The position numbers and the translations under genes are program-made. A DNA stretch of 26,947 nt, taken from positions 1 to 26,947 of the IMG/VR virus record IMGVR_UViG_3300009151_000311. One strand, written 5' to 3'. Within the stretch, counting starts at the first letter, position 1. Every line of letters begins with the position of its first letter. This document shows, one piece after another, positions 1 to 20,747 of this stretch. Under the pieces are notes generated by a model. That model saw only the letters and a list, made by a program, of their open reading frames with translations. It did no database searches and was not told the DNA's origin. Source of the stretch: a virus.

Positions 1-954
1 CTGAAGCACCCCACGTTTGGTGCCGCGGCACCCGATGTGATGCGAAACGCCAAGAACCGCGACACGTTTTTGTATCGCCATGCCGACAAGGCACACCGCG
101 CCGTCTACGGCAAGCCATTTGAGACTTGGAACCAGGGAAACATCGGCACCTGCGTCAGCTTCGGTTGGGGCATGGGGAGCTATATCGGCCAGTGCGTCGA
201 CTGGACGCAAGGCGAGCGAAACGATCCGCCGAAGCTCGTCAGCCCGGAAGCCATCTACGGCGGAAGTCGCACGGCCGGCAGGCTCCCTCCGATTGACTTC
301 GCTGGCTACTCCGATGGATCGTATGGCGCGGCTGCCGCCCGGTGGATCGTCGGCACAAAGGCTGGCGTCGGCGGGATTCTGTTCCGCGAGAAGTACGGCG
401 ACATCGACCTGACCAACTACGACATCGCACGGGCGAAAGAGTGGGGGGCGCGGGGCGTTCCCCTGGCTCTTGGCAAGGAAGCCACCAAGCACACCGCCCA
501 AGGCGTGGCCCTCTGCGACTCCTACGAAGCTCTTTGCGCTGCGATCGAGAACGGGCTGTGTGTTCCGATCTGCTCCAACGTTGGCTACGCCGCGACCAAC
601 GTCAGGGATGCTGACGGCTTTCTCCCCCGCGGCGGGCAGTGGGGGCATTGCCTTGTGGCGATCTCGGTGCGATACGCCGCTGGCCCCGGTAAGCGCGACG
701 GAGTCCTGATCCTCAACTCGTGGGGGCCGAATTGGGTCAAGGGTCCGAAGTGGCCGGAAGACCAGCCAGACGGATCGTTCTGGGCCGCCCGCCGCGATGT
801 CGAAGCCATGCTCGCCCAGGGCGATTCGTTCGTGATCGCCGGGGCCAACGGCTTCGAGGCCCGCGATCTCGACAACGGCGCGTGGCTCGAGCCTGCCGTC
901 GCCCGCCCGCAACCCGCCCGCATCATCGCCAGCGTCTACTCTCTCGCCCCGTGA
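1..954 (+). CDS. Papain-like (C1A family) cysteine peptidase, probably 5' truncated
   Basis: The protein carries the full papain catalytic set with correct spacing. Numbered from a GTG at base 37, these are Gln33 and Cys39 in NQGNIGTCVSF (six residues apart, as in papain), His204 in QWGHCL and Asn227 in LNSWG. No signal peptide or obvious propeptide is present. The frame is open back to base 1 and neither the GTG at 37 nor the ATG at 40 has a ribosome binding site, so the true start is probably outside the window. It is followed after 8 nt by a small membrane protein gene, with the capsid gene two genes further on. The family hydrolyses peptide bonds. In this phage it could process the capsid, attack host wall or surface proteins, or form part of a lysis cassette; the sequence does not decide. 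Family call sure, role unknown. Confidence 0.85.
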   Translation: MKHPTFGAAAPDVMRNAKNRDTFLYRHADKAHRAVYGKPFETWNQGNIGTCVSFGWGMGSYIGQCVDWTQGERNDPPKLVSPEAIYGGSRTAGRLPPIDFAGYSDGSYGAAAARWIVGTKAGVGGILFREKYGDIDLTNYDIARAKEWGARGVPLALGKEATKHTAQGVALCDSYEALCAAIENGLCVPICSNVGYAATNVRDADGFLPRGGQWGHCLVAISVRYAAGPGKRDGVLILNSWGPNWVKGPKWPEDQPDGSFWAARRDVEAMLAQGDSFVIAGANGFEARDLDNGAWLEPAVARPQPARIIASVYSLAP

Positions 955-962
955 GGCCCGCC

Positions 963-1235
963 ATGATCCTCGACCGCCGCCTTGTCGCCATCGTCATTGT
1001 CTGCCTCGCCGTCGGCTGGTGGCTGGGAAGCTCCCCGGCCAGCCCGATCAATCCGACGCCGCAGCGGCCGGTCCTCGCCGCCGTCGGCCGGCTGGCCCGG
1101 ATCGCCGCGCGCCTCGGGCTGTGGGTGGCGATGGCTGCCGAGCCGGCCCCGCAGCTCGAGCGGCAGCAGATCGTCAGAAGCCCGGCGGTCGACGCCGCCG
1201 GGAATCGAGTGGTAGATCACGGGGAGGGCTGGTGA
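963..1235 (+). CDS. Small single-pass membrane protein (holin-like candidate)
   Basis: This 90-residue protein has one hydrophobic segment at about residues 7-23 (LVAIVIVCLAVGWWLG) after a short basic N-terminus, then a Pro/Ala-rich and polar tail that probably lies on one face of the membrane. It starts 8 nt after the peptidase gene and its stop overlaps the next start (TGATG), so the three genes look co-translated. A one-segment protein next to a peptidase could be a holin, spanin-like or anchor protein. No family is recognised, so the lysis reading is inference. The start was chosen as the first ATG after the upstream stop. Confidence 0.65.
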   Translation: MILDRRLVAIVIVCLAVGWWLGSSPASPINPTPQRPVLAAVGRLARIAARLGLWVAMAAEPAPQLERQQIVRSPAVDAAGNRVVDHGEGW

Positions 1236-1495
1236 TGACGCTGTTACGCTCCGTTACGGCCTGGCTCGCCTCACTCTCAGCCGATCCTGCGGAGATCGAC
1301 CGCGAGCCGCCGCGCGCCGCCGCGGCCGTGGCTGCGGCGTATGCAAGTTTCGCCCCCGAAACTTCACCAGCGCCGCCGCCTATTCAAGTTTGCGGCTGCG
1401 GCGGGAAGTGCGTGGACGGACGCTACAAGCCGGACGGCAAGATCGTCATGAGCTGCGAGAAGGATTGCCCCTGCGGCTGCCGCAAGCCGCGGTGA
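1235..1495 (+). CDS. Small cysteine-rich protein of unknown function
   Basis: This 86-residue protein has an Ala/Pro-rich N-terminal half and a C-terminal cluster of eight cysteines spaced in pairs (CGCGGKC, then SCEKDCPCGC). Such spacing suggests zinc binding or a disulfide-knotted module. The start overlaps the stop of the membrane protein gene by one base. The gene sits directly before the capsid gene, so it may be a minor virion or assembly component, but no family is recognised. Its stop is followed at once by a perfect palindrome (1496-1510). Confidence 0.6.
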   Translation: MTLLRSVTAWLASLSADPAEIDREPPRAAAAVAAAYASFAPETSPAPPPIQVCGCGGKCVDGRYKPDGKIVMSCEKDCPCGCRKPR

Positions 1496-1510
1496 GTTGT
1501 ACGGTACAAC
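1496..1510. promoter_or_regulatory. Perfect palindrome upstream of the capsid gene, operator-like
   Basis: The arms GTTGTAC and GTACAAC flank a single G, giving a 15-nt perfect dyad that begins on the base after the stop of the Cys-rich gene. It lies in the 95-nt gap before the capsid gene. A dyad of this size suits a dimeric regulator, but no binding protein is known and no clear -35/-10 pair was found beside it. Confidence 0.4.
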
Positions 1511-1544
1511 CGGCAACTTCACCGGCGTGTCGATCTCCGGGATC

Positions 1545-1568
1545 GTGCGTGTGTCAATCACACCGCAC
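1545..1568 (+). other. Hairpin in the capsid gene leader
   Basis: GTGCGTGTG pairs with CACACCGCAC around a TCAAT loop, with one bulged base. It ends about 10 nt before the GGAG ribosome binding site of the capsid gene. There is no T-run, so it is not a standard terminator. It could stabilise the capsid mRNA 5' end or affect translation. Confidence 0.4.
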
Positions 1569-1590
1569 ACCGATCCTTGGAGACCACCAG

Positions 1591-2811
1591 ATGAATCCCG
1601 TCAGCACCCGCCGGCGTCTCCAGGACGAGGCCGCGAAGATCCACGCCGACATCGAGGCGCTCCGCTCCGCTGCTCCCGAGTCCGACCAGGAGCAGGCCGA
1701 CAACCTCGGCCGCCTCGGTGAGCTCGAAGCCCGGGCCGACTCGATCGCTGTCGACCTCGAGCGTGAGAACGCCACCGACGCGCGACTCTCCAGGCTCCGC
1801 ACCGCAGCCAGCAACGTCGCCGAGCATCGCTCGACCGATGCCGCCGAAAAGCCGCAGGCGCAGCAGCTGGCATCGTTCGGCCGTCAGGTCTACTCCGACG
1901 AGGCCCGTCTGCTCCGGGTCTCCCAGTATCTCCGCGGTCTCCGCGATGGCACGATCAACGCCCGGGCCCTGTCCGAGACCGGCTCCGCCGGGGCTGGGAT
2001 CGAGTTCAATCCGCCGGTCGATCTTTACAACGAGATCGTCAACGTAATCAACCGGCAGTCGATCGGTGCGCAACTCGCGCTCACGATCAACACCAACAGC
2101 CGGACGGTCGATGTGCCGAAGCTCGGCCTTGTAACGGCCGACTTTGTCGCCGAGAACACCGCGCCGACGGCGCAGGATCCGACCACCTCGAAGGTCACGC
2201 TCACCATCTACGACGCGAAGTCGGAAGTCGATGTGTCGAACAACCTGCTGAACGACTCGCCGCTGGATGTCGCCAGCTACGTCACCCAGTTTTTTGGCAA
2301 CGCCTTCGCAAAGTTCTACGACACCACCTGGCTCGCGGGCCATTCCGGCAACTCGATCGCCGGGCTCTACGCCGGGATCACTTCCGGCCGCAAGGCAACC
2401 GTGGCTGTCGGTGGAACGATCTCCGCGGCCAACGTCGGCACGGTCATCGGCTCCATCGATCCGATGGTGATGGGGGACTTCGCGTGGGTTGTCTCGGCTG
2501 CCGGGTGGGGCCAGCTGCTCGCCCTCGAGGGGACGCGCTACGTTCAGCCGATGGTCGGCGGTGGAGCTCCTGGACTGAGCGTGTGGGGAGTGCCGGTCTA
2601 CAAGACCGACACCCTGCCCGCCAACGTCCTGGCCGTCTACGGGGCTTACCGCATGACGACCGCGCTGGCCATGCGGAAGGATCTCACTGTCACGCCGCTC
2701 CGCGAGCTGAAGGCCCGCGAGAACCAGACCGTGTTCCTCGCTCACGGCCGTTTCGGTCTGAGCAACCACGGCCCCGAGTACGCCGGAGCGATCGTCCAGG
2801 CCACCTCCTGA
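1591..2811 (+). CDS. HK97-fold major capsid protein with N-terminal delta domain
   Basis: This 406-residue protein has the layout of HK97-family major capsid proteins. A charged helical coiled-coil scaffold (delta) region spans about residues 1-100. It is followed by a short linker near the ALSETGSAGAG stretch, where proteolytic maturation is usual, and then the capsid fold with its beta-rich core and conserved C-terminal part (VYGAYRMTTALAMRKDL, then GRFGLSNHGPEYAG). The frame runs open upstream to 1390, but the ATG at 1591 is preceded by GGAG at a good distance and is the natural start. The protein builds the icosahedral shell. A perfect terminator directly follows, so the gene is probably transcribed as its own strong unit. 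Confidence 0.93.
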   Translation: MNPVSTRRRLQDEAAKIHADIEALRSAAPESDQEQADNLGRLGELEARADSIAVDLERENATDARLSRLRTAASNVAEHRSTDAAEKPQAQQLASFGRQVYSDEARLLRVSQYLRGLRDGTINARALSETGSAGAGIEFNPPVDLYNEIVNVINRQSIGAQLALTINTNSRTVDVPKLGLVTADFVAENTAPTAQDPTTSKVTLTIYDAKSEVDVSNNLLNDSPLDVASYVTQFFGNAFAKFYDTTWLAGHSGNSIAGLYAGITSGRKATVAVGGTISAANVGTVIGSIDPMVMGDFAWVVSAAGWGQLLALEGTRYVQPMVGGGAPGLSVWGVPVYKTDTLPANVLAVYGAYRMTTALAMRKDLTVTPLRELKARENQTVFLAHGRFGLSNHGPEYAGAIVQATS

Positions 2812-2838
2812 TCCGCTTCCATCATCCGCCCGTCTCAG

Positions 2839-2879
2839 CGGCCGGGCGAGGCTCCAACCTCGCCCGGCCGTTTTTCTTT
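2839..2879 (+). terminator. Intrinsic terminator after the capsid gene
   Basis: A 13-bp perfect stem (2839-2851 with 2858-2870), a 6-nt loop and a TTTTTCTTT tract form a textbook Rho-independent terminator. It lies 27 nt after the capsid stop and 12 nt before the next start, so it probably lowers expression of the connector genes relative to the capsid. Confidence 0.9.
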
Positions 2880-2891
2880 GAGGAGCCCCCG

Positions 2892-3107
2892 ATGTCGATG
2901 CCCTCGCTCTCGATCAAGTTCCGCTCCGAGTACGGCAACCATCAGGCCGGTGCCGTGGTGTCGTTCCCCGAGGGGATGGCCAGGCATCTCGTCGACAGCG
3001 GCCTGGCCACATTCCTCCCGGCCGAGCCCGTCGTCGAGCCCACCGAGCCTGTCGTCGAGCGGGCCGACGCCCGCGCCGCAAAGAACGTTCAGCGCGCCGT
3101 CAAGTAA
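2892..3107 (+). CDS. Small post-capsid protein, possible head-completion or decoration factor
   Basis: This 71-residue protein starts at an ATG with a strong GAGGAG site 6 nt upstream. The first 45 residues show the pattern IKF...YGNHQAGAVVSF...LVDSGLATF, commonly seen in small proteins encoded just after phage capsid genes. The C-terminus is acidic with a repeated EPVVE motif, then basic. A related 46-residue protein is encoded at 4634-4774. The exact function is not known. Confidence 0.75.
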   Translation: MSMPSLSIKFRSEYGNHQAGAVVSFPEGMARHLVDSGLATFLPAEPVVEPTEPVVERADARAAKNVQRAVK

Positions 3108-3118
3108 CTGGGGGGCCC

Positions 3119-3757
3119 GTGATCAAGCTTCGCTCCCTCAAGCAACTCTCCGAGGCCGAGGTCGAGCCGGTCTCTTTGGCTGCGGCCAAGGGGCAGGTAG
3201 GACGACTCCCGGAGCAGTCGGACGACGACGCTCTCCTGATCCGGCTGATCTCCACCGGCCGCCGGCTGGTCGAGCAACGGCTCGGGACGACGCTGGCGAC
3301 CCGCCAGTTCCGGGCGACGTTCGAGCGTGACCTGTATCGACACGGCCACGGCCACGATCACTGCCACCACGACCACGCCTACTACCAGGGCTACGGCCGC
3401 CTCGGGCTGCGGATCCCTGTCCCGCCGCTCCTGGTGGACGGGACGCACCCGCTGGTGATCACGGTCGGCGGAGTGGTGATCTCGTCGACGACCTACACGG
3501 TCGACTCCGACTCCACCCCCGCGGTGATCCGGTTCTCCACCTGGCCGACGTTCGATGACGACAACCCCCTGGTCGTGACCTTCTGGGCCGGGCCCGCGTT
3601 GGGCGGCCGGATCGAGCCGGCAGCAGAATCGGTGATCCTGCTTTACGTCGCCCACGGTTTCAAGCACCGGGAGGGCGTGGTGATGGGCAGCGCGAACCCG
3701 CTGCCGATGGCGATTGAGACGCTCCTGGCGTCGATCTCGATCACGGGAGCCTACTGA
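3119..3757 (+). CDS. Head-tail connector (gp6/adaptor family) with histidine-rich insertion
   Basis: The N-terminus (PVSLAAAKGQV, then DDDALLIRLISTGRRLVEQRLG) is the helical pattern of gp6-like connectors, which form a ring under the portal. At about residues 77-88 the protein has the run HGHGHDHCHHDH followed by a Tyr/Gly stretch, not a usual part of the family and possibly metal binding. The start is a GTG 12 nt after the previous stop with a G-rich site upstream. The order connector, head closure, gp10-like, tail terminator that follows is typical of siphoviruses. Confidence 0.8.
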   Translation: MIKLRSLKQLSEAEVEPVSLAAAKGQVGRLPEQSDDDALLIRLISTGRRLVEQRLGTTLATRQFRATFERDLYRHGHGHDHCHHDHAYYQGYGRLGLRIPVPPLLVDGTHPLVITVGGVVISSTTYTVDSDSTPAVIRFSTWPTFDDDNPLVVTFWAGPALGGRIEPAAESVILLYVAHGFKHREGVVMGSANPLPMAIETLLASISITGAY

Positions 3758-3758
3758 C

Positions 3759-4100
3759 ATGGGCGACCGCACCGCCGCCGGGCTGAAGACCCATACCTTC
3801 CGTTTCGAGCGCCCCGTCGAGACACGCAACTCCGTCGGTGAGATCTCCTCGATCTCCTGGGTGACGATGTGCCGACGGCGGGGATCGATCGAGCAGGTCG
3901 GTTACTCCGAGTCCCGCGACCAGGGCCAGACGTCCGGCAATGCGTCCTACCTGATCGTGGTCCCCTCGGTCCCCGGGCTCGACGGTTCCTCCCGGATCAT
4001 CTGGGAAAGCCGGCTCGGCCGGATCCTGGCCGTGTCGTCGGTCGTCGGTGACGACGCCGATCCCGAGCAGACGATCCAGGCTGGGGAGAAAAAGACATGA
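3759..4100 (+). CDS. Head closure / head-tail joining protein (gp16-like)
   Basis: This 113-residue protein contains the FERPVETRNSVGEISSISW segment characteristic of the small beta-barrel head-tail joining proteins that plug the connector after packaging. It lies between the gp6-like connector and the gp10-like protein, the expected position. The ATG at 3759 follows the previous stop by one base. The end overlaps the next start by four bases (ATGA). Confidence 0.8.
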   Translation: MGDRTAAGLKTHTFRFERPVETRNSVGEISSISWVTMCRRRGSIEQVGYSESRDQGQTSGNASYLIVVPSVPGLDGSSRIIWESRLGRILAVSSVVGDDADPEQTIQAGEKKT

Positions 4101-4621
4101 GCGCCCCGGGCCTGTTTTTCAGCGCCTTCTTCTCTGACAAGAGCAACCGCGACATCGACGATCTGATCCGCGCCTATGCCAAGTTGCCCGGTTCGCTCGC
4201 CAGGAAGCACCTCAAGGCCGCGATCCGGCGATCGATCAAGCCGTTTGTCCCGTCCCTCAAGGCCGCGACACCTCGAGGGGCCACCGGCAACCTGCGGCGA
4301 TCAGTGACGACCATCGTTCGGTTCGGCACCAAGGTCTCCCGCGGCGGTGGTGACAGTTTCCGAGGCACTGCCATCGGGGTCGTCGGGTTCTCCCGCAAGG
4401 GGAAGAAGAAAAACCAGAAGGGCGACCACTCCGTTTTGGTCGAGGCTGGCAGCAAGCCCCGCAAGCGGAAGCGCGGTGGCTCCACCGGCACCATGCCCCC
4501 GAAGCACATGCTCCGCGACACGCTCGCCTCGAAGAGGTCCGGCATCCTGTCGAACATGGAAATTGAAATGGGCGTAAGCCTCGAACGGGCCGTCCGCGAA
4601 AACGCTACCCGCCCCCGCTGA
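4097..4621 (+). CDS. HK97 gp10-like neck / tail-completion protein
   Basis: This 174-residue protein has the gp10-family pattern: a helical N-terminus, a basic patch ending in TPRGATGNLRRSV, a central loop, VLVEAGSKPRKRKRGGS and a terminal MPPKHMLRDTL...A segment. These proteins bridge the head connector and the tail. It is very basic in the middle. Translation is coupled to the head closure gene by an ATGA overlap. Confidence 0.75.
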   Translation: MSAPGLFFSAFFSDKSNRDIDDLIRAYAKLPGSLARKHLKAAIRRSIKPFVPSLKAATPRGATGNLRRSVTTIVRFGTKVSRGGGDSFRGTAIGVVGFSRKGKKKNQKGDHSVLVEAGSKPRKRKRGGSTGTMPPKHMLRDTLASKRSGILSNMEIEMGVSLERAVRENATRPR

Positions 4622-4633
4622 AGGAGCCCCGCC

Positions 4634-4774
4634 ATGGACACCGTCCTCATCCGATTCACCGCCCCCCACGGCCCGTACAAGCCGGGGGATGTTCTCTTCG
4701 TCAACCACGCCGAGCTGGCCGCGCTGCTGGCCGAGGGCGTGATCGAGGCCGATCCCGCCGGGGGTGGCGAATGA
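4634..4774 (+). CDS. 46-residue protein related to the post-capsid small protein
   Basis: A short ORF with a good AAGGAG site (4621-4626) starts 12 nt after the gp10-like gene and overlaps the next gene by ATGA. Its pattern IRF..PHGPYKPGDVLFV...LAALLAEGVIEADP resembles the first half of the protein at 2892-3107. Both may be small barrel-like structural proteins. Function unknown. Confidence 0.65.
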   Translation: MDTVLIRFTAPHGPYKPGDVLFVNHAELAALLAEGVIEADPAGGGE

Positions 4775-5163
4775 GCAGCCCCGAAGCCTGGCTCAAGGCC
4801 ACGATCGAGACGGCCGGCGCTACCGCTTTCCCGGTGGCCGTCTCGGAGTCTGCACCCCTGCCCTTTGCCGTCTACGCCCGGGAGTCAACCGAGCGGCCAC
4901 TCCAGACCAGCGGGCTCACCGGATTCGCCGACGGGGAGTTCTCCGTTGAGGTCTGCGGGGCCAGTTGGACATCGGCCAGGACGGTGGCGGATGCGATCGT
5001 GGCGGCCGTCCAAAACTTCACCGGCACCGCCAATGGGGCCATCATCGATCACGTTCATGTCGCGGCTGACCGCGACGGAACCGCGGTCTACCTGACCGAC
5101 GGGCAGGATCTGCCGTCCTACTTCGTGATCGAGCTCCAAATCTTTATTCGCTGGAGAGAATAG
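4771..5163 (+). CDS. Tail terminator / tail-completion protein
   Basis: This 130-residue protein has the pattern of small tail-terminator proteins, with a helical N-terminus, a central FSVEVCGASWTSARTVADAI helix and a final beta strand (FVIELQIFIRW). The position between the gp10-like gene and the tail tube genes is where the tail terminator, which caps the tube and joins it to the head, is expected. The call rests on length, pattern and gene order. Confidence 0.65.
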   Translation: MSSPEAWLKATIETAGATAFPVAVSESAPLPFAVYARESTERPLQTSGLTGFADGEFSVEVCGASWTSARTVADAIVAAVQNFTGTANGAIIDHVHVAADRDGTAVYLTDGQDLPSYFVIELQIFIRWRE

Positions 5164-5165
5164 CC

Positions 5166-5519
5166 ATGGCCGTCGCGCCCGCCACAATCGACACGATGCA
5201 GGGCTTGACGTTCTCCTTCAATGCGATCGAGTTTCGGGCGACGAACATCAAGCGGAAAGAGTCACGACCGCTCATCGAGGTTTCGGACTGCTCTCAAGCG
5301 GTCGACTCGCTGCGGATTTATCAGTCCGAGCCACTGAAACAAGGCGATGAAATCTCCCTTGAGTATTTCGGAAAGAATGCCCCGGTGAAGGGCACAAAGT
5401 ACGCGATCAGCTGCTCCGGACTGGGCATCACCGGCAATGCCTTTTGTACCGATGTCGAAGAGGGCGGAGCCGTCGGCGAGTACGTCAAGGGTACGGCCAC
5501 GTTCAAGATCACTGGCTGA
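5166..5519 (+). CDS. Tail tube-like protein, copy 1
   Basis: This 117-residue protein is beta-rich, starts with QGLTFSFN and ends in VKGTATFKITG. It resembles its neighbour at 5532-5912 (QGATVSFN near the start, IQGSYQFQFTG at the end), so the two look like diverged tandem paralogues. Both sit between the tail terminator and the tail assembly chaperone, where the major tail tube gene belongs. Which copy builds the tube cannot be told. The start is an ATG 2 nt after the previous stop. Confidence 0.65.
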   Translation: MAVAPATIDTMQGLTFSFNAIEFRATNIKRKESRPLIEVSDCSQAVDSLRIYQSEPLKQGDEISLEYFGKNAPVKGTKYAISCSGLGITGNAFCTDVEEGGAVGEYVKGTATFKITG

Positions 5520-5531
5520 TCTGGGGGCGTC

Positions 5532-5912
5532 ATGGCAGACATCCCATCCGCACAAGGCGCTACCGTTTCTTTTAACGGGACTGCGCTCGGTGGCCTGATC
5601 GGCTTCGACGAGTCTTACGCCGCAGCGTCCCCGACTGACACGACAGGGGCCTCGGCCACGATCGTCGGCAGCGGGGGGAACACGCGGGTGATCCGCCAAG
5701 TCGAGATCACCATGATCGAGCCGGGCTCGATCTCTTTCCGCTGCTGGGGGAATCCCCCATTCGGCCGCGCCGATATCGGCCTGTCCGCAACGCTCGCCTT
5801 CACTATCGGCGGGGTGGCCACCAGCTGGCCGGCGCAACTGGCAAGCGTCCAGCGTGTCGGCTCCGCCGGTGAACTGATCCAAGGTTCGTACCAGTTTCAA
5901 TTCACGGGGTAA
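5532..5912 (+). CDS. Tail tube-like protein, copy 2
   Basis: This 126-residue Gly/Ser/Thr-rich beta protein is the second of the tandem pair. It may be the main tail tube subunit or a partner that alternates with, caps or decorates the first. It lies 12 nt after copy 1, with a GGGGG site upstream, and 2 nt before the chaperone gene. Confidence 0.65.
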   Translation: MADIPSAQGATVSFNGTALGGLIGFDESYAAASPTDTTGASATIVGSGGNTRVIRQVEITMIEPGSISFRCWGNPPFGRADIGLSATLAFTIGGVATSWPAQLASVQRVGSAGELIQGSYQFQFTG

Positions 5913-5914
5913 CC

Positions 5915-6277
5915 ATGCTCTCCCGCGACGATCTGTTGACCCTCGAAGCCAACAAGCCGGCCCCCCCAAAGCGGCTCCATGTGGCAGCGTGGGGCGGGGA
6001 TGTGTTCGTCCTCGACCCGACGGCTCAGACCTACGACGAGTGGTCGATCTTTTGCGAGACCTACAAGGGCACCGCGGCCCCGTGGCGGGCGAAGCTGGCA
6101 TCACTCCTCCTGTGCGACGAGGCGGGGAAGCGGCTCTTCACCGAGGCCGATGTCCCGACGCTGGCCGGCTGGCGGCCCGACGGTCTCCTTGAGGTATGGC
6201 AGGTCGGCATCGAGCTCCTCAAGGTCGACGACAAGGAGATCGAGGCCGAGGCGGAAAAATCCGTGGCCAGCCCCTGA
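5915..6277 (+). CDS. Tail assembly chaperone, G-like short form
   Basis: This 120-residue acidic, helical protein lies between the tube genes and the tape measure gene, the usual position of the lambda G-type chaperone. The C-terminus (EAEAEKSVASP) is charged. A slippery run at 6253-6259 and a hairpin just after it allow a fraction of ribosomes to slip -1 and make the longer G-T product. The short form ends at the TGA at 6275-6277, inside the hairpin region. Confidence 0.75.
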   Translation: MLSRDDLLTLEANKPAPPKRLHVAAWGGDVFVLDPTAQTYDEWSIFCETYKGTAAPWRAKLASLLLCDEAGKRLFTEADVPTLAGWRPDGLLEVWQVGIELLKVDDKEIEAEAEKSVASP

Positions 6278-6588
6278 CGCTGTTCCTCGGGAGGCTGGCC
6301 CTGGCGTGTGGCGAGTGGGATGTGGAGACGCTGTCGGAGCAAATCTCGCTGCGGCAGCTGAAGTGGTGGGCGGCTTACTGGATGGTCGAGCCGTTTGGGG
6401 ATGACTGGTCGAGGTCCGGGAAGTTGGCCGCGGTGATGGCTGCGGCCCAGGGGGCCAAGGTCGAACCGGACTTTGAGGAGAAGTTTTTGCCGTCCTACCG
6501 GGCCCCGGTCCAGACGGAAGAGCAACTCAAAGAACAGCTGCGGCGGATCCCATTCTTCGCGGCGCAGATGGAGGCGAAAGGAATCTGA
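5915..6588 (+). CDS. Tail assembly chaperone, G-T frameshift product
   Basis: The -1 frame after the slip site (about 6256 to 6588) encodes roughly 110 residues beginning KIRGQPLTLFLGRLALACGEWD. It contains LSEQISLRQLKWWAAYWMVEPFGD in two parts, a pattern like lambda T / minor tail T proteins. This frame has no convincing start of its own, so it is most likely read only as a fusion. G and GT chaperones keep the tape measure soluble while tube subunits assemble around it. The T end lies 1 nt before the tape measure start. Confidence 0.7.
6253..6300 (+). promoter_or_regulatory. Programmed -1 ribosomal frameshift signal
   Basis: In the chaperone frame the codons are GAA AAA preceded by G and followed by T. 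Slipping back one base lets the lysine tRNA re-pair perfectly. Five bases later an 8-bp perfect stem, GGCCAGCC (6265-6272) with GGCTGGCC (6293-6300), encloses a 20-nt loop. A slippery run, short spacer and stable stem are the standard parts of bacterial -1 signals. Confidence 0.7.
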
Positions 6589-6589
6589 C

Positions 6590-8053
6590 ATGGCAGGCAT
6601 CGGCAAAGTCTCCGCGATCTTCACGGCCTCGAGCTCGGGGCTGACTGCTGGCGTGTCGAAGGCGAGCTCGTCGCTCAAGAGCCTCGGCAATGACGTTGCC
6701 GGGCTTCGCTCGGGGATGCGCCTGCTGAACGCGATCTCCGGGGCGCAGCTGTTCGGCCAGATCGCGTCGAGCGCCATGGGCGCAGCCCGGTCTCTGGTGG
6801 GCCTCGGCCAGGCCCAGGCCAACGTCATCGACGACACCAGCAAACTCTCGGCCCGGCTCGGGATGACCTACGGCGAGCTCGCCGGCTTGTCTCACGCTGG
6901 CGATCTGGCTGGCGTCAGCATGGAGTTGATCGGCAAAGCCGCGACGAAGGCCGACATTGCGTTCGTCAGGGCGGCTCAGGGCTCTGACGTTGCCAAGGCG
7001 GGATTCGCTGCCGTCGGGCTCTCTCTGGCCGATCTCCAGGGCAAATCGTCTGCGGAGCGATTCTCCGCGATCACCGATGCCATCGCGGGGCTGCCGACCG
7101 AGGCGGAGCGGGCCGCCGCCGCGGTGAAGCTCTTCGGCAAGGCCGGGGCCGAGCTGCTGCCGCTGTTCGCCGGCGGGGCTGGATCGATCAAGGAAGCCAC
7201 CGACGAGGCCCAGCGGTTCGGGATGGCCCTCACCGGCGCGCAGGGCCGAGACGTTGAGGCCATGAACGATTCGTTCCAGAAGGTGTCCGCGGCCATCAGC
7301 GGGATCGTCAAACAGATCACCGCCTACCTCGCCCCCTCGATCACCGCAATCGCCACGACGTTCACCGACTTCGTCGGCTCTATGGGCGGGGCCAACATCG
7401 GCCAGGCCATCGGCGCGGGGATCCTGGCTGCGGCCCGATACATGGCCGGCGTCGGGGACTTTATCATCGGTGGGCTGACCACGGTGGGTGAATACCTGAC
7501 GTTCGTCGGCGGCAATTGGTCTGCCGTATTCGACTCCGTTGGCCGGCTCGGCTCGCTGCTGGCTGGCGTCGCCAGGGTGTGGGCAGGATCGATTCTGACT
7601 GTGCTGGGCACCGCCGCGAAGGTTATCGGGCTGGTGTCGAAGACGGCACAGGATGCGTCGAAGGGAATCACAGCCGCGGCAAAGGCCAACTTCGCCGCGG
7701 CCGGCCAGAACTTTGACGGGGCCTTCGGGGACAAGGCCAATGCCGGCGCGGGCCCGCTATCAGTGGCTCTTGGAATTGCTCTCGAAAAGTCGCGCCTCGC
7801 TGCCGGCCAACTCGACCAGGCGAAGAAGACCACGATTGCCGGCATGGCTCCAGCCGGTGGGGTGATCGCCGCACGCAACCAGGAGGTCAAGGCAATCGAC
7901 TCCCGGTCGAAGGAGGGCATCGCCGAGATGTTTCGTTTGATGCGTGGCGATGCCAACGATCCAGCCGAGCGGACGGCAAAGGCCACCGAGCGGATCGCCG
8001 ACAACACCGACGACATGGGCCTCGACATCGAAGAGCTATCTTTTGCAGGGTGA
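6590..8053 (+). CDS. Tail tape measure protein
   Basis: This 487-residue protein is Ala/Gly/Ser-rich and largely helical. It contains hydrophobic segments in the middle (around residues 240-400) and a typical tape-measure N-terminus (VSAIFTASSSGLTAGVSKA) and ends in a charged helix. It sits directly after the G/T chaperone. If the usual rule of about 1.5 angstrom per residue holds, the tail would be short, around 70 nm. The ATG at 6590 is preceded by AAAGGA; the frame runs open further upstream but that part overlaps the T region. Confidence 0.88.
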   Translation: MAGIGKVSAIFTASSSGLTAGVSKASSSLKSLGNDVAGLRSGMRLLNAISGAQLFGQIASSAMGAARSLVGLGQAQANVIDDTSKLSARLGMTYGELAGLSHAGDLAGVSMELIGKAATKADIAFVRAAQGSDVAKAGFAAVGLSLADLQGKSSAERFSAITDAIAGLPTEAERAAAAVKLFGKAGAELLPLFAGGAGSIKEATDEAQRFGMALTGAQGRDVEAMNDSFQKVSAAISGIVKQITAYLAPSITAIATTFTDFVGSMGGANIGQAIGAGILAAARYMAGVGDFIIGGLTTVGEYLTFVGGNWSAVFDSVGRLGSLLAGVARVWAGSILTVLGTAAKVIGLVSKTAQDASKGITAAAKANFAAAGQNFDGAFGDKANAGAGPLSVALGIALEKSRLAAGQLDQAKKTTIAGMAPAGGVIAARNQEVKAIDSRSKEGIAEMFRLMRGDANDPAERTAKATERIADNTDDMGLDIEELSFAG

Positions 8054-8056
8054 ACC

Positions 8057-8956
8057 ATGGCCGTCATCGCAACCAAGTACCTTCCGAATAAGGCCACCGG
8101 CAGCGGGGCTTTCCGGGAATCCCATGTCCTGAATGAATCGTGGATGGTGCGTGTCGATGCACCGCCACCGACGACCAGCGTGGCCGCGATCCTGACGGCT
8201 CCCGGTGTGGCCTACGGAGACGCTCATGCGTCGTTCACTTCATGTAAGGCCATGAAGTGGACCTACTCCGCGGCCGATGGCTCTGGGTTGATGTGGACCG
8301 TTGGCGTCGAATACTTCGTGCCGATCATCGAGATCAACCCCGCCAACGGTCTGCCGCTCGATGTGTGGGCTGGGCGTGGCACCAACGTAATGCTGCCATT
8401 TTTCAAGGATAAAGACGGAGACGTTCTCAAAAACTCCGCTGGAGATCCGATTGAAGGCATGGAGCGCGAGCTATGCTTCCGCGCCTATACGCTGGTCCGC
8501 TCCTACTCTTCGCTGTCTGCGGCAGACGCAGAGATGAACGCCGTCAACAATAAGACCAACTCCGACACATGGCCCACGCTGGGATCGTATGGGCTTGCCG
8601 ATACATGGAAGTGTTCAATCTCTAACTTTTCCAAGAAGGTAATTATCACCAGTTCCGGCGCAACCCAGACGGCGGCACGCTACTGGGAAGTGACTTATGA
8701 GATGGAATACAAATCAGACACATGGCGATGTAAGCCGTGGGATATGGGCTTTAATGAGCGTGTCGACGGAACCGGAACGCCCACAAGCAGTGGCACTAAC
8801 AGACGATCAATCGTCGGCTTCGACAAGAAGCCAGTCCGGCAACCTTGTGCGCTATCCAGTGGTGTAGCTCTCCCGCCTGGTACTCCGCCGGTTGCGCTGG
8901 ACTTCGACCCATACGACAAGGTCAGCTACATTACAAAGTTCGGAAACCCAGCATGA
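8057..8956 (+). CDS. Tail-tip or baseplate candidate of unknown family
   Basis: This 299-residue protein follows the tape measure by 3 nt, where distal tail proteins are normally encoded. It is rich in aromatic and polar residues, with predicted beta strands and no signal peptide or membrane segment. It is less GC-rich in its second half than the tape measure gene. No family is recognised; the tail role is inferred from position. It overlaps the next gene by ATGA. Confidence 0.6.
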   Translation: MAVIATKYLPNKATGSGAFRESHVLNESWMVRVDAPPPTTSVAAILTAPGVAYGDAHASFTSCKAMKWTYSAADGSGLMWTVGVEYFVPIIEINPANGLPLDVWAGRGTNVMLPFFKDKDGDVLKNSAGDPIEGMERELCFRAYTLVRSYSSLSAADAEMNAVNNKTNSDTWPTLGSYGLADTWKCSISNFSKKVIITSSGATQTAARYWEVTYEMEYKSDTWRCKPWDMGFNERVDGTGTPTSSGTNRRSIVGFDKKPVRQPCALSSGVALPPGTPPVALDFDPYDKVSYITKFGNPA

Positions 8957-9456
8957 AGCGGAAAGTTACAGTTACGTCCCGCGAATCGCTGGCGCGGATC
9001 GGTAACGCTGTGCGCTCCATCGAGAACGGTGGCCGCAACGCTTCGCACCACTCGCCACGGTACATGGCATGGGATGGCGGTGGGACTGTCAGCCTCGGCA
9101 AGACTGCGGCCGACTGGCTGAAAGACACATCGGCGTCGATCGCCCTCTATGCCGGCACGCCCGGATCGGAGGCCGCCACTGGCGAGTCCGTCCCTGTCTG
9201 GAATCACTTCGGGAAAGTGCTGTCCGGTAAGTGGGTGATGATCGGCGAAAACTCGGATGGGAACCGATACCTGATCGCCCCGGAATCAGACCAGCAGGAT
9301 GTCGTCTACAACGCCGCAATTGTTGCCACGACTGTCTCTGGAGTTACGACTTCCAAGCTGGTGTTCTACCGGAAGAAAGTATGGGTCCACTCCGTCGAGG
9401 AAAGCACCACGGTTGAACTGGGATTGGCGGAATGCGTCCCTGGCTACAGTGGGTAA
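8953..9456 (+). CDS. Tail-region protein of unknown function
   Basis: This 167-residue protein starts in an ATGA overlap with the upstream gene. It has a basic N-terminus and a beta-rich body (GKWVMIGENSDGNRYLIAPE). The N-terminal part looks flexible. It is probably part of the tail tip, by position only. Confidence 0.55.
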   Translation: MKRKVTVTSRESLARIGNAVRSIENGGRNASHHSPRYMAWDGGGTVSLGKTAADWLKDTSASIALYAGTPGSEAATGESVPVWNHFGKVLSGKWVMIGENSDGNRYLIAPESDQQDVVYNAAIVATTVSGVTTSKLVFYRKKVWVHSVEESTTVELGLAECVPGYSG

Positions 9457-9459
9457 CCA

Positions 9460-9843
9460 ATGGGCCTCATCACTTACAACGGCCAACTGCTGCTAGCGGC
9501 TGGCGGTCTGGCAAATACGATCGACTGCTGCTGTGGTCATCGTTACTGCTACTGCTTCACGCATTCGATCAACTATGTGATTGTGGCCCGCTGGCGTCGA
9601 TGCTACCGCGATCCTGTTTATGTTACCGCCATTGGAGCGTTTGTGTTCCCAGACGGCCAGCCTTGTGACGGAACTGCAAATGGAATGATCTGCCCGCCCG
9701 GCTCAACTGGCCGCTCAGTTCAATACGGCGGGCTGATGGTCAGTGTTTGTAGTTGCGGAAGCGGAAACGAAAGTTACAACGCTTCGGTCATTCAAAACCA
9801 AACGGCGTTTGATAACTGTACAGCCCTCGGGAGTCCTCCCTGA
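9460..9843 (+). CDS. Cysteine-rich tail-region protein
   Basis: This 127-residue protein has eleven cysteines, including a CCC run at residues 23-25 and the pattern CYC shortly after. It starts MGLITYNGQLLLAAGGLA. Such density in a virion-region protein suggests metal sites or disulfides in an extracellular structure. The start is an ATG 3 nt after the previous stop; the end overlaps the next ATG. Function unknown. Confidence 0.6.
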   Translation: MGLITYNGQLLLAAGGLANTIDCCCGHRYCYCFTHSINYVIVARWRRCYRDPVYVTAIGAFVFPDGQPCDGTANGMICPPGSTGRSVQYGGLMVSVCSCGSGNESYNASVIQNQTAFDNCTALGSPP

Positions 9844-10349
9844 TGCTCGTCGTGATGGACGCACTAAGGGCCGTCGAACACATGAAACCGGACGGCTATA
9901 TGGATGCCGTCATGGGGAGTGGTGTCGTCCGCATGGAGCCCGGCGTCGGTGAGGTCGTCGACATCCCCGACGCCGTCTACTGGTCGATGGTCCGCACCTA
10001 CTCACCGACGGAGTTGCATCAGCGGTATGCCATCTATGGATGTGGCCCAGGCTGCCAACTGAAAAAGACTCTTGCGTGGTGGGGCCTGCGGGATGACGGG
10101 CAGTGTGGCTGTTCCGACTTCGCCGCGCAGATGGACCGATGGGGCCCGGACGAAAGCTTCCGCCGGATCGAGGAGATCGTCGAACACCTCCGGGAAGCAG
10201 CCGCGAAGAAGGCTCTGCCTTTCCTGGCGACGGCGGCCCGCATGATGACCGCCCGGGCGATTGAGGCCGCACGAAAGGAGCTCGACCATGCCACGGAAGA
10301 GGCCAATCCCACCGCCTGGACAAACTTGGTCCGGGCTCGACGAGCCTGA
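9843..10349 (+). CDS. Unknown protein with Cys motif and helical C-terminus
   Basis: This 168-residue protein has a central Cys pattern (YGCGPGCQL, then GQCGCSDF) followed by a conserved-looking segment MDRWGPDESFRRIEEIVEHL and a long charged helix. It is read from an ATG overlapping the previous stop. Its last 62 bases overlap the next small gene in another frame. No family is recognised. Confidence 0.6.
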   Translation: MLVVMDALRAVEHMKPDGYMDAVMGSGVVRMEPGVGEVVDIPDAVYWSMVRTYSPTELHQRYAIYGCGPGCQLKKTLAWWGLRDDGQCGCSDFAAQMDRWGPDESFRRIEEIVEHLREAAAKKALPFLATAARMMTARAIEAARKELDHATEEANPTAWTNLVRARRA

Positions 10350-10464
10350 CATCACCGGGGCCGAGGAGGCCGAGGCCGAGCAGCTGATTGAGTTCGGCCG
10401 AAGGTCGAAGAAGCCGAAGCCACCCGAGGAGGAAAAGCCGTGCCCCCAAAAAAGCCCTCGCTGA
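10288..10464 (+). CDS. Small acidic/basic protein, unknown, overlapping both neighbours
   Basis: This 58-residue ORF has a strong AAAGGAG site 7 nt before its ATG. The protein has a Pro-rich start and mixed charge (EEAEAEQLIEFGRR, then KKPKPPEEEKPC). It overlaps the upstream gene by 62 nt and the downstream gene by 25 nt. The good ribosome site supports it being real; function unknown. Confidence 0.55.
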   Translation: MPRKRPIPPPGQTWSGLDEPDITGAEEAEAEQLIEFGRRSKKPKPPEEEKPCPQKSPR

Positions 10465-10700
10465 CCGACGACATCCGCCGTGGCGTGGCCGCCGCGAAGA
10501 AGGGGCCGGCCTCCTGGCTGTCCAAGCTCACGCCCGACGTCCAGCAAGAGCTGACGCAGGTTCGGGCCGAGTTCCTCGCTGGCCAGATCGAGGGCACACG
10601 AACCGCGCTGGCCCGGTCCATTCATGCGGCGCTCTCCGCTCGCGGTCTGATCACCGTTACCCGCTCTGAGGTGATGCGATGGATCAACGCCGCCGATTGA
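10440..10700 (+). CDS. Small helical, probably DNA-associated protein
   Basis: This 86-residue protein starts at a GTG after a GAGGAGG-rich site. It is helical and basic, with the pattern WLSKLTPDVQQELTQVR and a C-terminal RGLITVTRSEVMRWINAAD that could be a helix-turn-helix-like unit. Its end overlaps the metallophosphoesterase start by 22 nt, which suggests that they act together. Function unknown. Confidence 0.6.
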   Translation: MPPKKPSLTDDIRRGVAAAKKGPASWLSKLTPDVQQELTQVRAEFLAGQIEGTRTALARSIHAALSARGLITVTRSEVMRWINAAD

Positions 10701-11785
10701 CCGCAGACATCCGCGAGGGCGTCGACCAGGCCGACCGGCTGCGCGCCGACGCCGAGCTGGCCAAGCTCCGCGCCGAGCTCGCCGCCACGAAGACCCGCTA
10801 TGGGACGGCGCTTCGGCAGATCGACCTTGAGCGGGAGCGGGCCGACTCGCTGGCGGGGCTGGCCGGACTCCAGGCCAAGGCCATGCCGCGGCCTGCCAAG
10901 CCAGCCCGGCCAAACGCGGCCACCGCCCTGGTCGTCCTGTCCGACTGGCACTGCGAGGAGACCGTCACCCGGGAGCAGACGGCGGGGCTCAATGCTTTCG
11001 ACCTTGAGGTGGCCGACCTGCGGATCTCCGAGTTGGCCCGGCGGATCGGCGTCCTCGTCGAGCACGAGCGCCAGTTGGTGAAGATCGACAGAATCGTGAT
11101 TGCGGCCCTCGGCGACTTCATCAGCGGCCACATCCATGAAGAGCTGGTCGAGACCTGCTCCCTGGCCCCCATGGCTGCCACCAGGTGGGCCGCGGCCCGG
11201 CTCCGGGGGATCATCGATATGGCGGCCGACATGGCCAGGGAGGTCATCGTCGTCACCCAGCCGGGGAACCACGGGCGGAGCAACCACGGGAAGCCCCGCA
11301 AGGCCACCGAGCACGACCACTCCTTCGAGCAGAACGCCTATCTCATGATGGCCGGCGGCGAGACCCGGCCCAACGTCCGATGGGAGATCGCGGCCGGTTA
11401 CCTCGGCTACCTCGATCTCGACGGGTTCGTGGTCCGCTACCACCACGGCCACGAGATCCGCTACCAGGGTGGCATCGGTGGGATCGCCGTGCCGGTAAAC
11501 AAGGCGATCTCCGCGTGGAACCGATCGAGGCCCGCCCATCTGGACGTTTTCGGGCACTGGCACCAGTGGGGGTGGCTCCGGGGGAAGTACGTTTCCAACG
11601 GCAGCCTGATCGGGATGTCGGCTTTCGCGCTGCGGATCAAGGCGGAGTTCGAGGCCCCGTGCCAATCGCTGGTGATCGTCGACCACGGCCGGCGGGAGGT
11701 CTCCCGGGCGGTCCCGATCTGGTGCGATGCCGATCTCCGCGCGGGGGTTGCCCACGCCCCCGGGCGCGGGAAGGTGGGTGCATGA
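10679..11785 (+). CDS. Calcineurin-like metallophosphoesterase
   Basis: The 368-residue protein has all the family metal-binding motifs in order: Asp89 and His91 in SDWHC, Asp146 in GDF, Asn197-His198 in GNHG, His255, His256 and His258 in HHGHE, and His293 and His295 in GHWH. The N-terminal 60 residues are a charged coiled-coil-like helix not part of the fold. Such enzymes cleave phosphoesters, including nucleic acids, with two metal ions. The substrate is unknown. It overlaps the small gene upstream and the DUF6378-like gene downstream (ATGA). Confidence 0.85.
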   Translation: MDQRRRLTADIREGVDQADRLRADAELAKLRAELAATKTRYGTALRQIDLERERADSLAGLAGLQAKAMPRPAKPARPNAATALVVLSDWHCEETVTREQTAGLNAFDLEVADLRISELARRIGVLVEHERQLVKIDRIVIAALGDFISGHIHEELVETCSLAPMAATRWAAARLRGIIDMAADMAREVIVVTQPGNHGRSNHGKPRKATEHDHSFEQNAYLMMAGGETRPNVRWEIAAGYLGYLDLDGFVVRYHHGHEIRYQGGIGGIAVPVNKAISAWNRSRPAHLDVFGHWHQWGWLRGKYVSNGSLIGMSAFALRIKAEFEAPCQSLVIVDHGRREVSRAVPIWCDADLRAGVAHAPGRGKVGA

Positions 11786-12120
11786 GCAACCACACCTCCG
11801 CCCCCTGTGCCGCCGTCGAGCTCCTCGAGCAGGCCCGCGCCGCGGTCATCGACCGCCACGGCAAGTACGGCCCGCCCGTCGAGCATTTTTCCAGGACGGT
11901 CGGCATGGTCAACGCCGCGTTCGCCGGCATCCTGACGAGGCCCCTGACGCCGTCCGACTGGGCGCTCATCATGCTCATCGACAAGGTGGCCCGGCACATG
12001 GGCACCGCCCGCACCACCGACACGCCGATCGATCTGGCCGGCTACGCCGCCTGTTTGGCGGAGTGCGAAGCGGCGGAGGGCTCGCCGCCCCCGGCTGTGG
12101 TCATGGGGCCTCCTCAATGA
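11782..12120 (+). CDS. DUF6378-like phage protein
   Basis: This 112-residue protein has the pattern HGKYGPPVEHFSRTVGMVN, DWALIMLIDKVAR and IDLAGYAACLAEC that marks the DUF6378 group, small phage proteins with an all-helical, nucleotide-hydrolase-like look. The precise activity is not known. The start overlaps the metallophosphoesterase stop. The 3' end overlaps the convergent integrase gene by 20 nt. Confidence 0.75.
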   Translation: MSNHTSAPCAAVELLEQARAAVIDRHGKYGPPVEHFSRTVGMVNAAFAGILTRPLTPSDWALIMLIDKVARHMGTARTTDTPIDLAGYAACLAECEAAEGSPPPAVVMGPPQ

Positions 12121-13003
12121 AATGGGCATCGCCCAGATCCAGCGCCGGGAGGAAGTCTATCCCCTCGGTTTTCCCCACCACGCGCTCGTCGAGGTAGTGG
12201 TTGCGGGTGATGTTCGCGTCACTGTGGTCGAGGTGCGACACGGCATCGCCACCCCCCGCCTGAACGTAGCTCGCGCTGGCCTTGCGGATCGCGTGGAACC
12301 GCCGCTGAGGCACCTCGGCTTTCGCGCACAGGATCGCCATCGAGGCGTAGATCGACGCGGGCTTCCCGGGCCACGGCCAGACCAGATCGCCAGGGCACCG
12401 CCGGTAAAGCTCAAGCTCGGCCGACAGGTCGGGCGTGATCCGTCTGGCGATGTCCCTGGTGTGCCCCTTCCTGGTGCCAGCCAGGAAGACGATCTCCGTC
12501 CCCTGGACGTTGAACCACCGGAGGGCCATCAACTCCCCGACCCTCGCTCCCGAGCACCACGCAGCGTAGATCAGCGTCGACCACCACCACCCCGCCGGCA
12601 GGCCGGCAATCGTCCGCTGCCGCCCCCGGGCCGCGACGATCAGCCGGGCCACCTCGGCCGAGGTGAAGCCGCGCGGCAGCCTCTTCTCCCCCCGGACCTG
12701 TCGGACGATGGGAAACTCCTCGATCAGCCGCTTGCGGAAGGCGTAGAGCGCGAGGGCGAGCAGCTGTGTGCGGTCTTTCCTCACCGTCCCCGCCGATGGA
12801 ATCCCCCGGCGCGCGGAGTGGATCGTTCGCCCTCGCCACGCCAGGAAGGCCGCGATCGTGTCTTCTTCGAGGTCTGCGACCATGGCTGGCCGCCCAAGGT
12901 ATTCGGAGAACCGATCGATCGAGTGACCGTAGATCTCGACCGTTCTTGGACAGATGCCCTTTACGGGGACGTACCGCTCAAGCAACAATTTCCGTAGCGT
13001 CAT
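12101..13003 (-). CDS. int: Tyrosine recombinase (phage integrase)
   Basis: This 300-residue protein contains a SAM-like DNA-binding N-terminus and the full catalytic set: Arg154 in GARVGEL, Lys179 in GTRKGH, His237 and Arg240 in FHAIRK, His260 in LDHSDANIT and Tyr270 in NHYLD. It cuts and joins DNA at att sites for integration and excision. The start at 13003 has a GGAGG site 8 nt upstream; a longer form from 13033 adds ten residues but lacks a comparable site. Upstream lies the attP-like sequence and a divergent HTH gene. Confidence 0.92.
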   Translation of the reverse strand: MTLRKLLLERYVPVKGICPRTVEIYGHSIDRFSEYLGRPAMVADLEEDTIAAFLAWRGRTIHSARRGIPSAGTVRKDRTQLLALALYAFRKRLIEEFPIVRQVRGEKRLPRGFTSAEVARLIVAARGRQRTIAGLPAGWWWSTLIYAAWCSGARVGELMALRWFNVQGTEIVFLAGTRKGHTRDIARRITPDLSAELELYRRCPGDLVWPWPGKPASIYASMAILCAKAEVPQRRFHAIRKASASYVQAGGGDAVSHLDHSDANITRNHYLDERVVGKTEGIDFLPALDLGDAHFIEEAP

Positions 13004-13014
13004 GGCTCCAACCT

Positions 13015-13060
13015 CCAGGTGGGTGGCATCCATGCCTTGCGTCTAAGGTAGGTCACCTGG
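13015..13060. repeat. Inverted 7-bp repeat beside the attP-like core
   Basis: CCAGGTG (13015-13021) and its complement CACCTGG (13054-13060) lie between the integrase start and the attP-like core. They could be integrase binding sites. The match is short and unproven. Confidence 0.3.
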
Positions 13061-13739: not shown

Positions 13740-14186
13740 ATGGCTGACACGGGGGTAAGGGCGACGGCGAGACGGCAGGCGAAGAGGCTGGCAGCGGGGA
13801 AGTCGATGGGGGTGGTGATCGGAGTGGCGAAGCCATTCCCAATCTCCCTGGCTCACCTGTGTTGGCAGATTGGCCTGAGTCACGAATCGACGGCATGGGT
13901 GGTGGGGCGATCGGTGAGCGAGGTTCGACACCAGTGGTCAATCCTCACGGGGCTTCCCCTTGAGGAAGACCCCACACCGGAAGCGATCGAGACCGGGACA
14001 GCGGAGATCCGGTCTGAGTGGTCACCCGAGACGTATCGGCTGGCCGAATCGGGGACCAGACACGACAGCAGCACGAAGCACAGGGGAGATCAACGATGCG
14101 CGACGACGAACAGCCTGGCGACCGGGAAGCGGAAGGGGCGATTGCCGGAATGGTCGAGCTCTACGGGGCTCATCGGGAGCCGGTGA
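13740..14186 (+). CDS. First gene of early operon, possible regulator
   Basis: This 148-residue protein has a very basic start (ARRQAKRLAAGKS) and a helical segment LAHLCWQIGLSHES followed by VGRSVSEVRHQW that could be a helix-turn-helix. A later EIRSEWSPETYRLA segment resembles EIRSGWTEQQQIAAARG in the small protein at 14343. The last 30 codons overlap the next gene and show less GC-rich third positions, so the natural end may have been lost. Family not recognised. Confidence 0.6.
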   Translation: MADTGVRATARRQAKRLAAGKSMGVVIGVAKPFPISLAHLCWQIGLSHESTAWVVGRSVSEVRHQWSILTGLPLEEDPTPEAIETGTAEIRSEWSPETYRLAESGTRHDSSTKHRGDQRCATTNSLATGKRKGRLPEWSSSTGLIGSR

Positions 14187-14239
14187 CCGATGGCATCCCC
14201 CTCGATCTCCTGGCCGTCGACCCGACGGACCTGGACTGA
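14096..14239 (+). CDS. Small acidic protein, unknown
   Basis: This 47-residue ORF has a GGGGAG site upstream and GC-rich third codon positions typical of the phage. It is acidic (MRDDEQPGDREAEG) and ends DLLAVDPTDLD. It overlaps the 3' end of the gene before it by 91 nt in another frame, and seems the more gene-like of the two there. The 103 nt after it hold no clear gene. Confidence 0.5.
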   Translation: MRDDEQPGDREAEGAIAGMVELYGAHREPVTDGIPLDLLAVDPTDLD

Positions 14240-14342
14240 AGGACGGGCCGGGGCTGGAAGCCCAGGCATGGAGCCCGCGGAGCGGGATGGCATGGATGGG
14301 GCCGTCGGTGGTGGAACCGCCGGCGGATCACGGAGGGGACTG

Positions 14343-14504
14343 ATGGCCACGATCACGATCTCCCGGAAGCTGCGGAAAGCCCTTCGAGAGATCCGGTCTG
14401 GCTGGACGGAGCAGCAGCAGATAGCAGCGGCGCGCGGGGTGAAGCGGTCGAGCAGTTCGATCGTGCCACCGCGCAAGGGGCGAGAGCGAAAAGGGGGCGA
14501 GTGA
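14343..14504 (+). CDS. Small basic protein, unknown
   Basis: This 53-residue protein has the EIRSGWTEQQQIAAARG motif shared with the gene at 13740 and a strongly basic tail (PPRKGRERKGGE). A GGAGGGG site lies before the ATG, and the stop overlaps the ATPase start (TGATG). Possibly a DNA-binding helper. Confidence 0.6.
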   Translation: MATITISRKLRKALREIRSGWTEQQQIAAARGVKRSSSSIVPPRKGRERKGGE

Positions 14505-15400
14505 TGGCAGGTTTTCGCAAGGCAACGAAGGCACAGGCGAAATTGAGGGCCGCCGGGTTTGGTCCATCCGGCAGCGGCAAGACGTTCTCAATGCTGCGGA
14601 TCGGACGCGGGCTGGCAGGCCCCACGGGGACCGTGGCGGTGATCGACACCGAGAGAGGATCGGCGTCGAAGTATTCCGACCGCTTCGACTTCGAGGTTCT
14701 CGACCTCAAGGACTACACCGTTCAGGGCTACGTCGACGCGATCAAGCAGGCCCATGGCTTCGATGTCCTCATCATCGACAGCCTGTCCCACGGCTGGCAG
14801 TCGCTCCTCGAGGAGGTCGAGAAGCTCGCCAAGGCCAAGTACCGCGGCAACACATGGTCGGCATGGTCCGAGGGGACGCCGCTCCAAAAGAAGTTGGTCA
14901 ACGCAATCCTCGACTTCCCCGGCCATGTGCTGGCGACGATCCGCAGCAAGACCGAATGGACGACGGTGGAAGACGGCCGCGGGAAGAAGGTTCCCCAGCG
15001 GATCGGCATGGCCCCGGAGCAGGGCAAGGGAATCGAATACGAGTTCGATCTGCTCTTGGAGATTTCGACCGAGCATTTCGCCAACGTGATCAAGGACCGG
15101 ACGGGCCGGTTCCAGGATCGGATCATCGACAAGCCGGACGAAGAGTTCGGCCGCCAGCTCGCTCTCTGGCTGGCCGATGGCGAGCCGGTGGCGGATTCCC
15201 CCCCGCCACCGGCCGCCCCTTCTCTGGATCCGCGGGTCGTCGAGCTCGGTGAGTTCCCAGACTCGGTCAAGAACGGCTGCCGCGCCGTCATGCGGGCCGC
15301 GATCAGCAGCGGCATCTCGAAGTCCGAGGCCATCGACCTGGCGGTCGAGCACGGCCGGGAGCTGGTGGCCGAGATGGCTCACGAAGAGGAGCCCGTCTGA
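14504..15400 (+). CDS. AAA/RecA-like ATPase, Sak4 / AAA_24 type
   Basis: This 298-residue protein has a Walker A loop GPSGSGKT (residues 20-27), a Walker B strand FDVLIIDS (86-93) and a RecA-like core, followed by an acidic/Pro linker and a helical C-terminus. It resembles phage nucleotide-binding proteins used in recombination (Sak4-like). These act with a single-strand DNA-binding partner; the DUF669-like gene two genes on is a good candidate. The start overlaps the previous stop. Confidence 0.8.
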   Translation: MAGFRKATKAQAKLRAAGFGPSGSGKTFSMLRIGRGLAGPTGTVAVIDTERGSASKYSDRFDFEVLDLKDYTVQGYVDAIKQAHGFDVLIIDSLSHGWQSLLEEVEKLAKAKYRGNTWSAWSEGTPLQKKLVNAILDFPGHVLATIRSKTEWTTVEDGRGKKVPQRIGMAPEQGKGIEYEFDLLLEISTEHFANVIKDRTGRFQDRIIDKPDEEFGRQLALWLADGEPVADSPPPPAAPSLDPRVVELGEFPDSVKNGCRAVMRAAISSGISKSEAIDLAVEHGRELVAEMAHEEEPV

Positions 15401-15756: not shown

Positions 15757-15770
15757 GGGAGGGATCAGAG

Positions 15771-16286: not shown

Positions 16287-16294
16287 GGTGACCC

Positions 16295-20182: not shown

Positions 20183-20246
20183 GTTGCCCACCGCACCACG
20201 CCCGATACCCTCGACCCCAGTTCAGTTCACCCACGGAGGATTTCTC

Positions 20247-20686: not shown

Positions 20687-20747
20687 TTTGTTCGTGTGGC
20701 TCGTCACGACGGCGGCCACGGTTCGATGCTCATGGAGGGATTCTCAG

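Follow-up and report, generated by a model that had tools for sequence, protein, structure and literature searches.

A candidate papain-like peptidase in a five-gene cassette of Planctomycetota phages: a probable envelope-breaching role

The virus contig analysed here carries, a short distance upstream of its major capsid gene, a gene for a putative papain-like cysteine peptidase, and the question raised by this locus is what such an enzyme does there. The window covers an IMG/VR record of 26,947 bases in full and begins within this open reading frame (gene C, 1-954, plus strand), which is open to the contig end at base 1, so that its 5' end is cut off. It is followed on the plus strand by gene D (963-1235), whose product has a single hydrophobic segment, by gene E (1235-1495), whose product is Cys-rich and whose ATG overlaps the stop codon of gene D, and by the gene for an HK97-type major capsid protein (1591-2811; PF05065, Phage_capsid, 3.9e-25; phrog_10, 1.2e-31). 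The first-pass annotation had described, after the papain gene, a membrane protein with one segment, then a Cys-rich protein and the capsid gene, and all three are found there; it had proposed that the peptidase is either a new type of maturation protease or, together with the membrane protein, a lysis pair.

The residues Gln33, Cys39, His204 and Asn227 (translation from base 37) are present in papain order and spacing exactly as had been reported. Base 37 is not the start of the gene: the open frame continues back to base 1, and contig L002 (IMGVR_UViG_3300028392_000502; positions 1-11247), which is 100% identical over window 1-10951, reaches 296 bases further left and contains a full-length copy with about 56 additional codons, which encode an N-terminal hydrophobic helix, a predicted membrane anchor. 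Judged by this identity, L002 and the window are one virus population in two records. In relatives, the full-length protein has about 370 amino acids and an N-terminal membrane anchor; a membrane segment was predicted in 82 of 87 papain reading frames, the exceptions including 5'-truncated copies, and the charge bias favoring an N-in topology was modest (56 of 80 papains). The residues Gln102, Cys108, His273, Asn296 and Trp298 (numbering of related contig L004) are invariant in 23 diverse homologues that are about 60% identical, the catalytic Asn being located in an NSW motif of which the Trp is also invariant. The papain proteins of L004 and the window are about 96% identical, and comparison of the two genes gave a dN of 0.024 and a dS of 0.305, indicating that the gene is under purifying selection.

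The proposed C1A assignment was borne out by structure prediction. An AlphaFold model of the papain protein (pLDDT 81) matched C1A enzymes in Foldseek, the best match being xylellain (3ois, E 6.4e-9), followed by cathepsins and papain (probability 1.00), and as modelled the gene C product has the papain (C1A) fold. Together with the invariant residues in 23 homologues and the dN/dS values, this structural match indicates that the papain pattern is more than chance, and with catalytic residue order, NSW motif and fold all fitting, the gene C product is a candidate C1A peptidase. It shares with the C1A papain family (xylellain, cathepsins, papain; PF00112) the predicted fold and the order and spacing of Gln, Cys, His and Asn-Ser-Trp, but differs by long insertions, the N-terminal membrane anchor and its context in a phage cassette; in Pfam, neither the window protein nor the 23 aligned members matched PF00112 above the curated cut-off. 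A relative from Gemmatales (L107), which is about 33% identical and aligns to the family at an hhalign probability of 99.9, does pass the PF00112 threshold (26.2 versus 20.7 bits). Three BFVD proteins from uncultured Caudovirales that are annotated as C1A peptidases (A0A6J7XQB9, A0A6J5QDM8, and A0A6J5TCZ4) share the C1A fold in tailed phages, but are only 14-16% identical to the L004 papain protein. A papain alignment search of IMG/VR detected 162 encoding stretches, and a protein search against 50,697 annotated phage records gave no match.

In related contigs, five genes of one orientation form a set, A-B-papain-D-E, with the papain gene in third place. This order on one strand is kept in the 87 loci examined (about 85 viral contigs), a sample that includes truncated loci and counts a few contigs twice. 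Genes A, B, and D were each found in 77-82 of these loci and gene E in 72, and a homologue of gene D lies directly 3' of the papain gene in 78-80. Of the cassette, the window holds only the right half, and A and B lie upstream, beyond the contig edge; the capsid gene is a neighbour of the cassette, outside the cassette proper. Gene A encodes about 120 amino acids with 0-3 predicted hydrophobic segments and matched no known family, including holin families, in Pfam and PHROG. The gene B product combines one or more membrane segments with a helical domain and gave nothing significant in Foldseek against PDB. The gene D product (about 90 amino acids) has one N-terminal hydrophobic segment, a Pro-rich linker and a conserved C-terminal GW, and the gene E product (86 amino acids) has a conserved region, LSADPxxIDxEPPRAAAAVAAAYA, and a Cys-rich C-terminus. 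In planctomycete prophages, the gene E product includes a thioredoxin domain and is secreted (L189, L190, and L191 exceed the PF13899 cut-off), and in L193 it is lipoprotein-like, its Cys-rich stretch preceding a thioredoxin domain that exceeds the PF00085 cut-off. Two contigs carry an additional Pro-rich lipoprotein-like gene with an SGLALFGC lipobox between D and E (L008, 9465-9737; L007, 11134-11574), which is possibly an outer-membrane spanin, its match to an Rz-like spanin PHROG being very weak (E 0.084).

The cassette is co-oriented with the structural genes in 24 of 24 loci in which structural genes are in view, and its place among them varies. It lies between the Peptidase_S78 and capsid genes in phages of the window type, upstream of TerL in L023, L054, L060, and L067, after a different capsid gene and before a different TerL in L007 and L008, and between tail genes and an integrase in L003. 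As it occurs in several positions beside different TerL, portal and capsid types, its job appears to be tied to the host and not to the capsid. The phages of this group are called temperate because of the integrase encoded at window 12101-13033. A first pattern scan of host genome contigs, with patterns that were too narrow, gave no match; a second scan gave only two among GTDB species contigs, both from Planctomycetota. When the papain profile was run on this phylum only, 12 of 392 genomes matched. Two of the loci (G145 and G357) show the order A-B-papain-E followed by a terminase-like gene, suggesting that they are prophages. By these genomic matches, the hosts are Planctomycetota, prophages included.

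Seven endolysin families were searched for in 18-32 related virus contigs, with positive controls that gave matches: Amidase_2, Phage_lysozyme, SLT, M15_3, M23, and NLPC_P60 (PF00877) gave no match, and CHAP (PF05257) gave none over cut-off, the searches for the last two including the record of the window. Within the window, a Pfam and PHROG scan of the main unannotated genes likewise yielded no endolysin, in agreement with the first-pass annotation. Absence of these families is not proof: every virus record here is linear and possibly a fragment, and the unannotated genes may include a lysozyme that has diverged strongly. Two candidates were discarded: a CHAP fragment in G007 reached 17 bits, below cut-off, over 35 positions, and for the reading frame at window 20244-20609 the phrog_1904 'endolysin' match (E 0.0043) is limited to residues 2-50, a stretch that includes the signal peptide. 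This small reading frame, of which the C-terminal stretch is Cys/Trp-rich ('ALASCCNNGRAVLEEGTAQGRDGRWYGCRRY'), and another at 20688-21077 both have apparent signal peptides and belong to no known family.

In sister phages the papain gene can be replaced. Of the TerL-anchored contigs, 34, not all of them independent, extend 2.5 kb or more past gene A; 29 of these contain papain C, and the other five (L120, L127, L128, L130, and L137) encode in the same slot a 293-amino-acid protein with papain-like Gln-Cys spacing. Four of these five add a trypsin-like protease with a signal peptide in that slot (PF13365, 5e-21 in L128), and this exchange of a protease for a protease at the same locus suggests protein substrates. 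Homology of the 293-residue protein (L128, 11593-12474) to papain found no support in hhalign; its likeness to papain is limited to the spacing of Gln and Cys and to a His. The trypsin-like protease of L128 (12471-13253) has an N-terminal Cys-rich, zinc-ribbon-like stretch that resembles gene E in style.

Since the cassette moves as a unit and its products include membrane proteins and secreted ones, and since the searches gave no other endolysin, the best available reading is that A-B-papain-D-E is a lysis set, which would breach the envelope of the hosts of temperate HK97-capsid Planctomycetota phages. The conserved gene order, the predicted C1A fold, the protease replacement, the thioredoxin domains in prophages and the host prophages in which A-B-papain precedes TerL also favor it, and we give it a probability of roughly 60%, a figure that covers envelope breaching with either protein or peptidoglycan as target and therefore overlaps with that of the peptidoglycan alternative discussed below. 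The lysis half of the earlier proposal thus stands, with a set of five genes in place of a pair, and the maturation half does not. Most likely, the cassette helps the virus to leave the unusual, protein-rich envelope of its host. In such a scheme, gene A would provide a holin-like membrane component, the gene B product, with its anchor and helical domain, and the singly anchored gene D product would reside in the cytoplasmic membrane, and the gene C product, tethered by its N-terminal helix with the catalytic domain presumably exported from the cytoplasm, would cleave envelope proteins or peptide cross-links at a time presumed to be that of lysis. The Cys-rich gene E product, which in prophages is replaced by or fused to a thioredoxin domain, might reduce envelope disulfides or keep the catalytic Cys reduced. 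SAR (signal-anchor-release) endolysins with pinholins resemble this arrangement in having an N-terminal membrane helix on the lytic enzyme, which for gene C is predicted, and small membrane proteins nearby; the enzyme class differs, and the cassette adds B, D, and E including a redox-type partner.

The envelopes of some planctomycetes have been described as consisting of protein with a high content of proline and cysteine and stabilised by disulfides (PMC3035269). A more speculative reading, which we hold to be less likely than not, is that secreted proteolysis (papain- or trypsin-like) and disulfide reduction (thioredoxin or Cys-rich partner) form a previously undescribed lysis module of Planctomycetota phages that is matched to a disulfide-linked protein envelope and replaces an endolysin that cuts peptidoglycan. 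The literature searched contained no account of how planctomycete phages lyse their hosts. If the cassette is a lysis module, a membrane-tethered C1A protease would be used for lysis, and the trypsin-like swap and the thioredoxin partner would allow the cohesion of planctomycete envelopes, long disputed between protein wall and peptidoglycan, to be tested directly. Lytic enzymes would also become available for a phylum in which genetic tools are scarce.

Endolysins with a papain fold, of the CHAP and NlpC/P60 types, are well known, and gene C might likewise encode a conventional peptidoglycan endopeptidase with a C1A-type fold, in which case the cassette would still serve lysis but the target would be the peptide stem. 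One structural match (A0A6J5MXS7) carries the annotation 'Peptidoglycan binding-like', and peptidoglycan is now accepted for planctomycetes (PMC5394234), so that one would expect an ordinary endolysin to be of use, a point against the proposed lysis set. However, beyond the general papain-like fold class and the proposed lysis role, gene C differs from these endolysins by its membrane anchor and by lacking a family match over cut-off and a recognised wall-binding domain; the enzymes that it matches best in structure (xylellain, cathepsins) are protein proteases, and the trypsin-like replacement of papain C points to protein substrates. A peptidoglycan target is possible, at odds clearly below even.

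An improbable alternative is that the cassette remodels the host envelope for superinfection exclusion, the anchored protease clipping surface receptors of the lysogen with no part in lysis. This would suit temperate phages, a membrane-anchored protease and presence in prophages, but the cassette is embedded in and co-oriented with the structural operon and is kept across many phages in which no other lysis gene was found. An entry or virion-associated protease acting during infection would explain why the gene lies among head genes in many relatives, but is very unlikely given its N-terminal membrane helix, the several membrane proteins of the set and the varying location.

Relatives that reach further left also decide on a papain-type maturation protease that replaces the serine enzyme and cleaves the capsid delta domain. 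In L004, the order is TerL, portal (PF04860, 1.5e-68), Peptidase_S78 (PF04586, Pfam 2.7e-32), A, B, papain, D, E and capsid, and this order recurs in a set of 80 TerL-anchored contigs, nearly all with Peptidase_S78, which is absent only from nine short ones without a capsid gene in view. The S78 prohead protease shares with gene C a neighbouring map position but is unrelated to it in sequence and catalytic class, and the papain protein gave no S78 match in Pfam and PHROG. Although in the window and many relatives the papain gene lies a short way before the capsid gene, the maturation reading is refuted by this normal prohead protease, encoded in the same genomes between portal and cassette, a finding named beforehand as decisive against it, and it is further contradicted by the predicted membrane anchor of the papain protein and by a cassette that is not bound to the capsid gene and often lies far from it (L003, L023, L054, L060, L067, and host prophages). 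In L128 (9322-10374), L130 (12727-14340), and L137 (4452-5423), the S78 reading frame has a C-terminal extension that looks HAD-type phosphatase-like by eye ('SLDFDGTFTAAPGLWR...'), an odd fusion.

At the right contig end (23475-26897, plus strand), the window carries genes of tail-fibre, LamG and HNH type, and parts of this region align upstream of TerL in L111: window 23836-26251 matches L111 6623-8855 with 78-82% identity in aligned pieces (blastn), and in L111 TerL starts near 10058 and the cassette is located at 14024-16835. The TerL-portal-S78-A-B block is therefore expected between the right and left ends of the window. Two adjoining HNH-like endonuclease reading frames are present at 26164-26897, a region that is expected to lie directly before the terminase genes.
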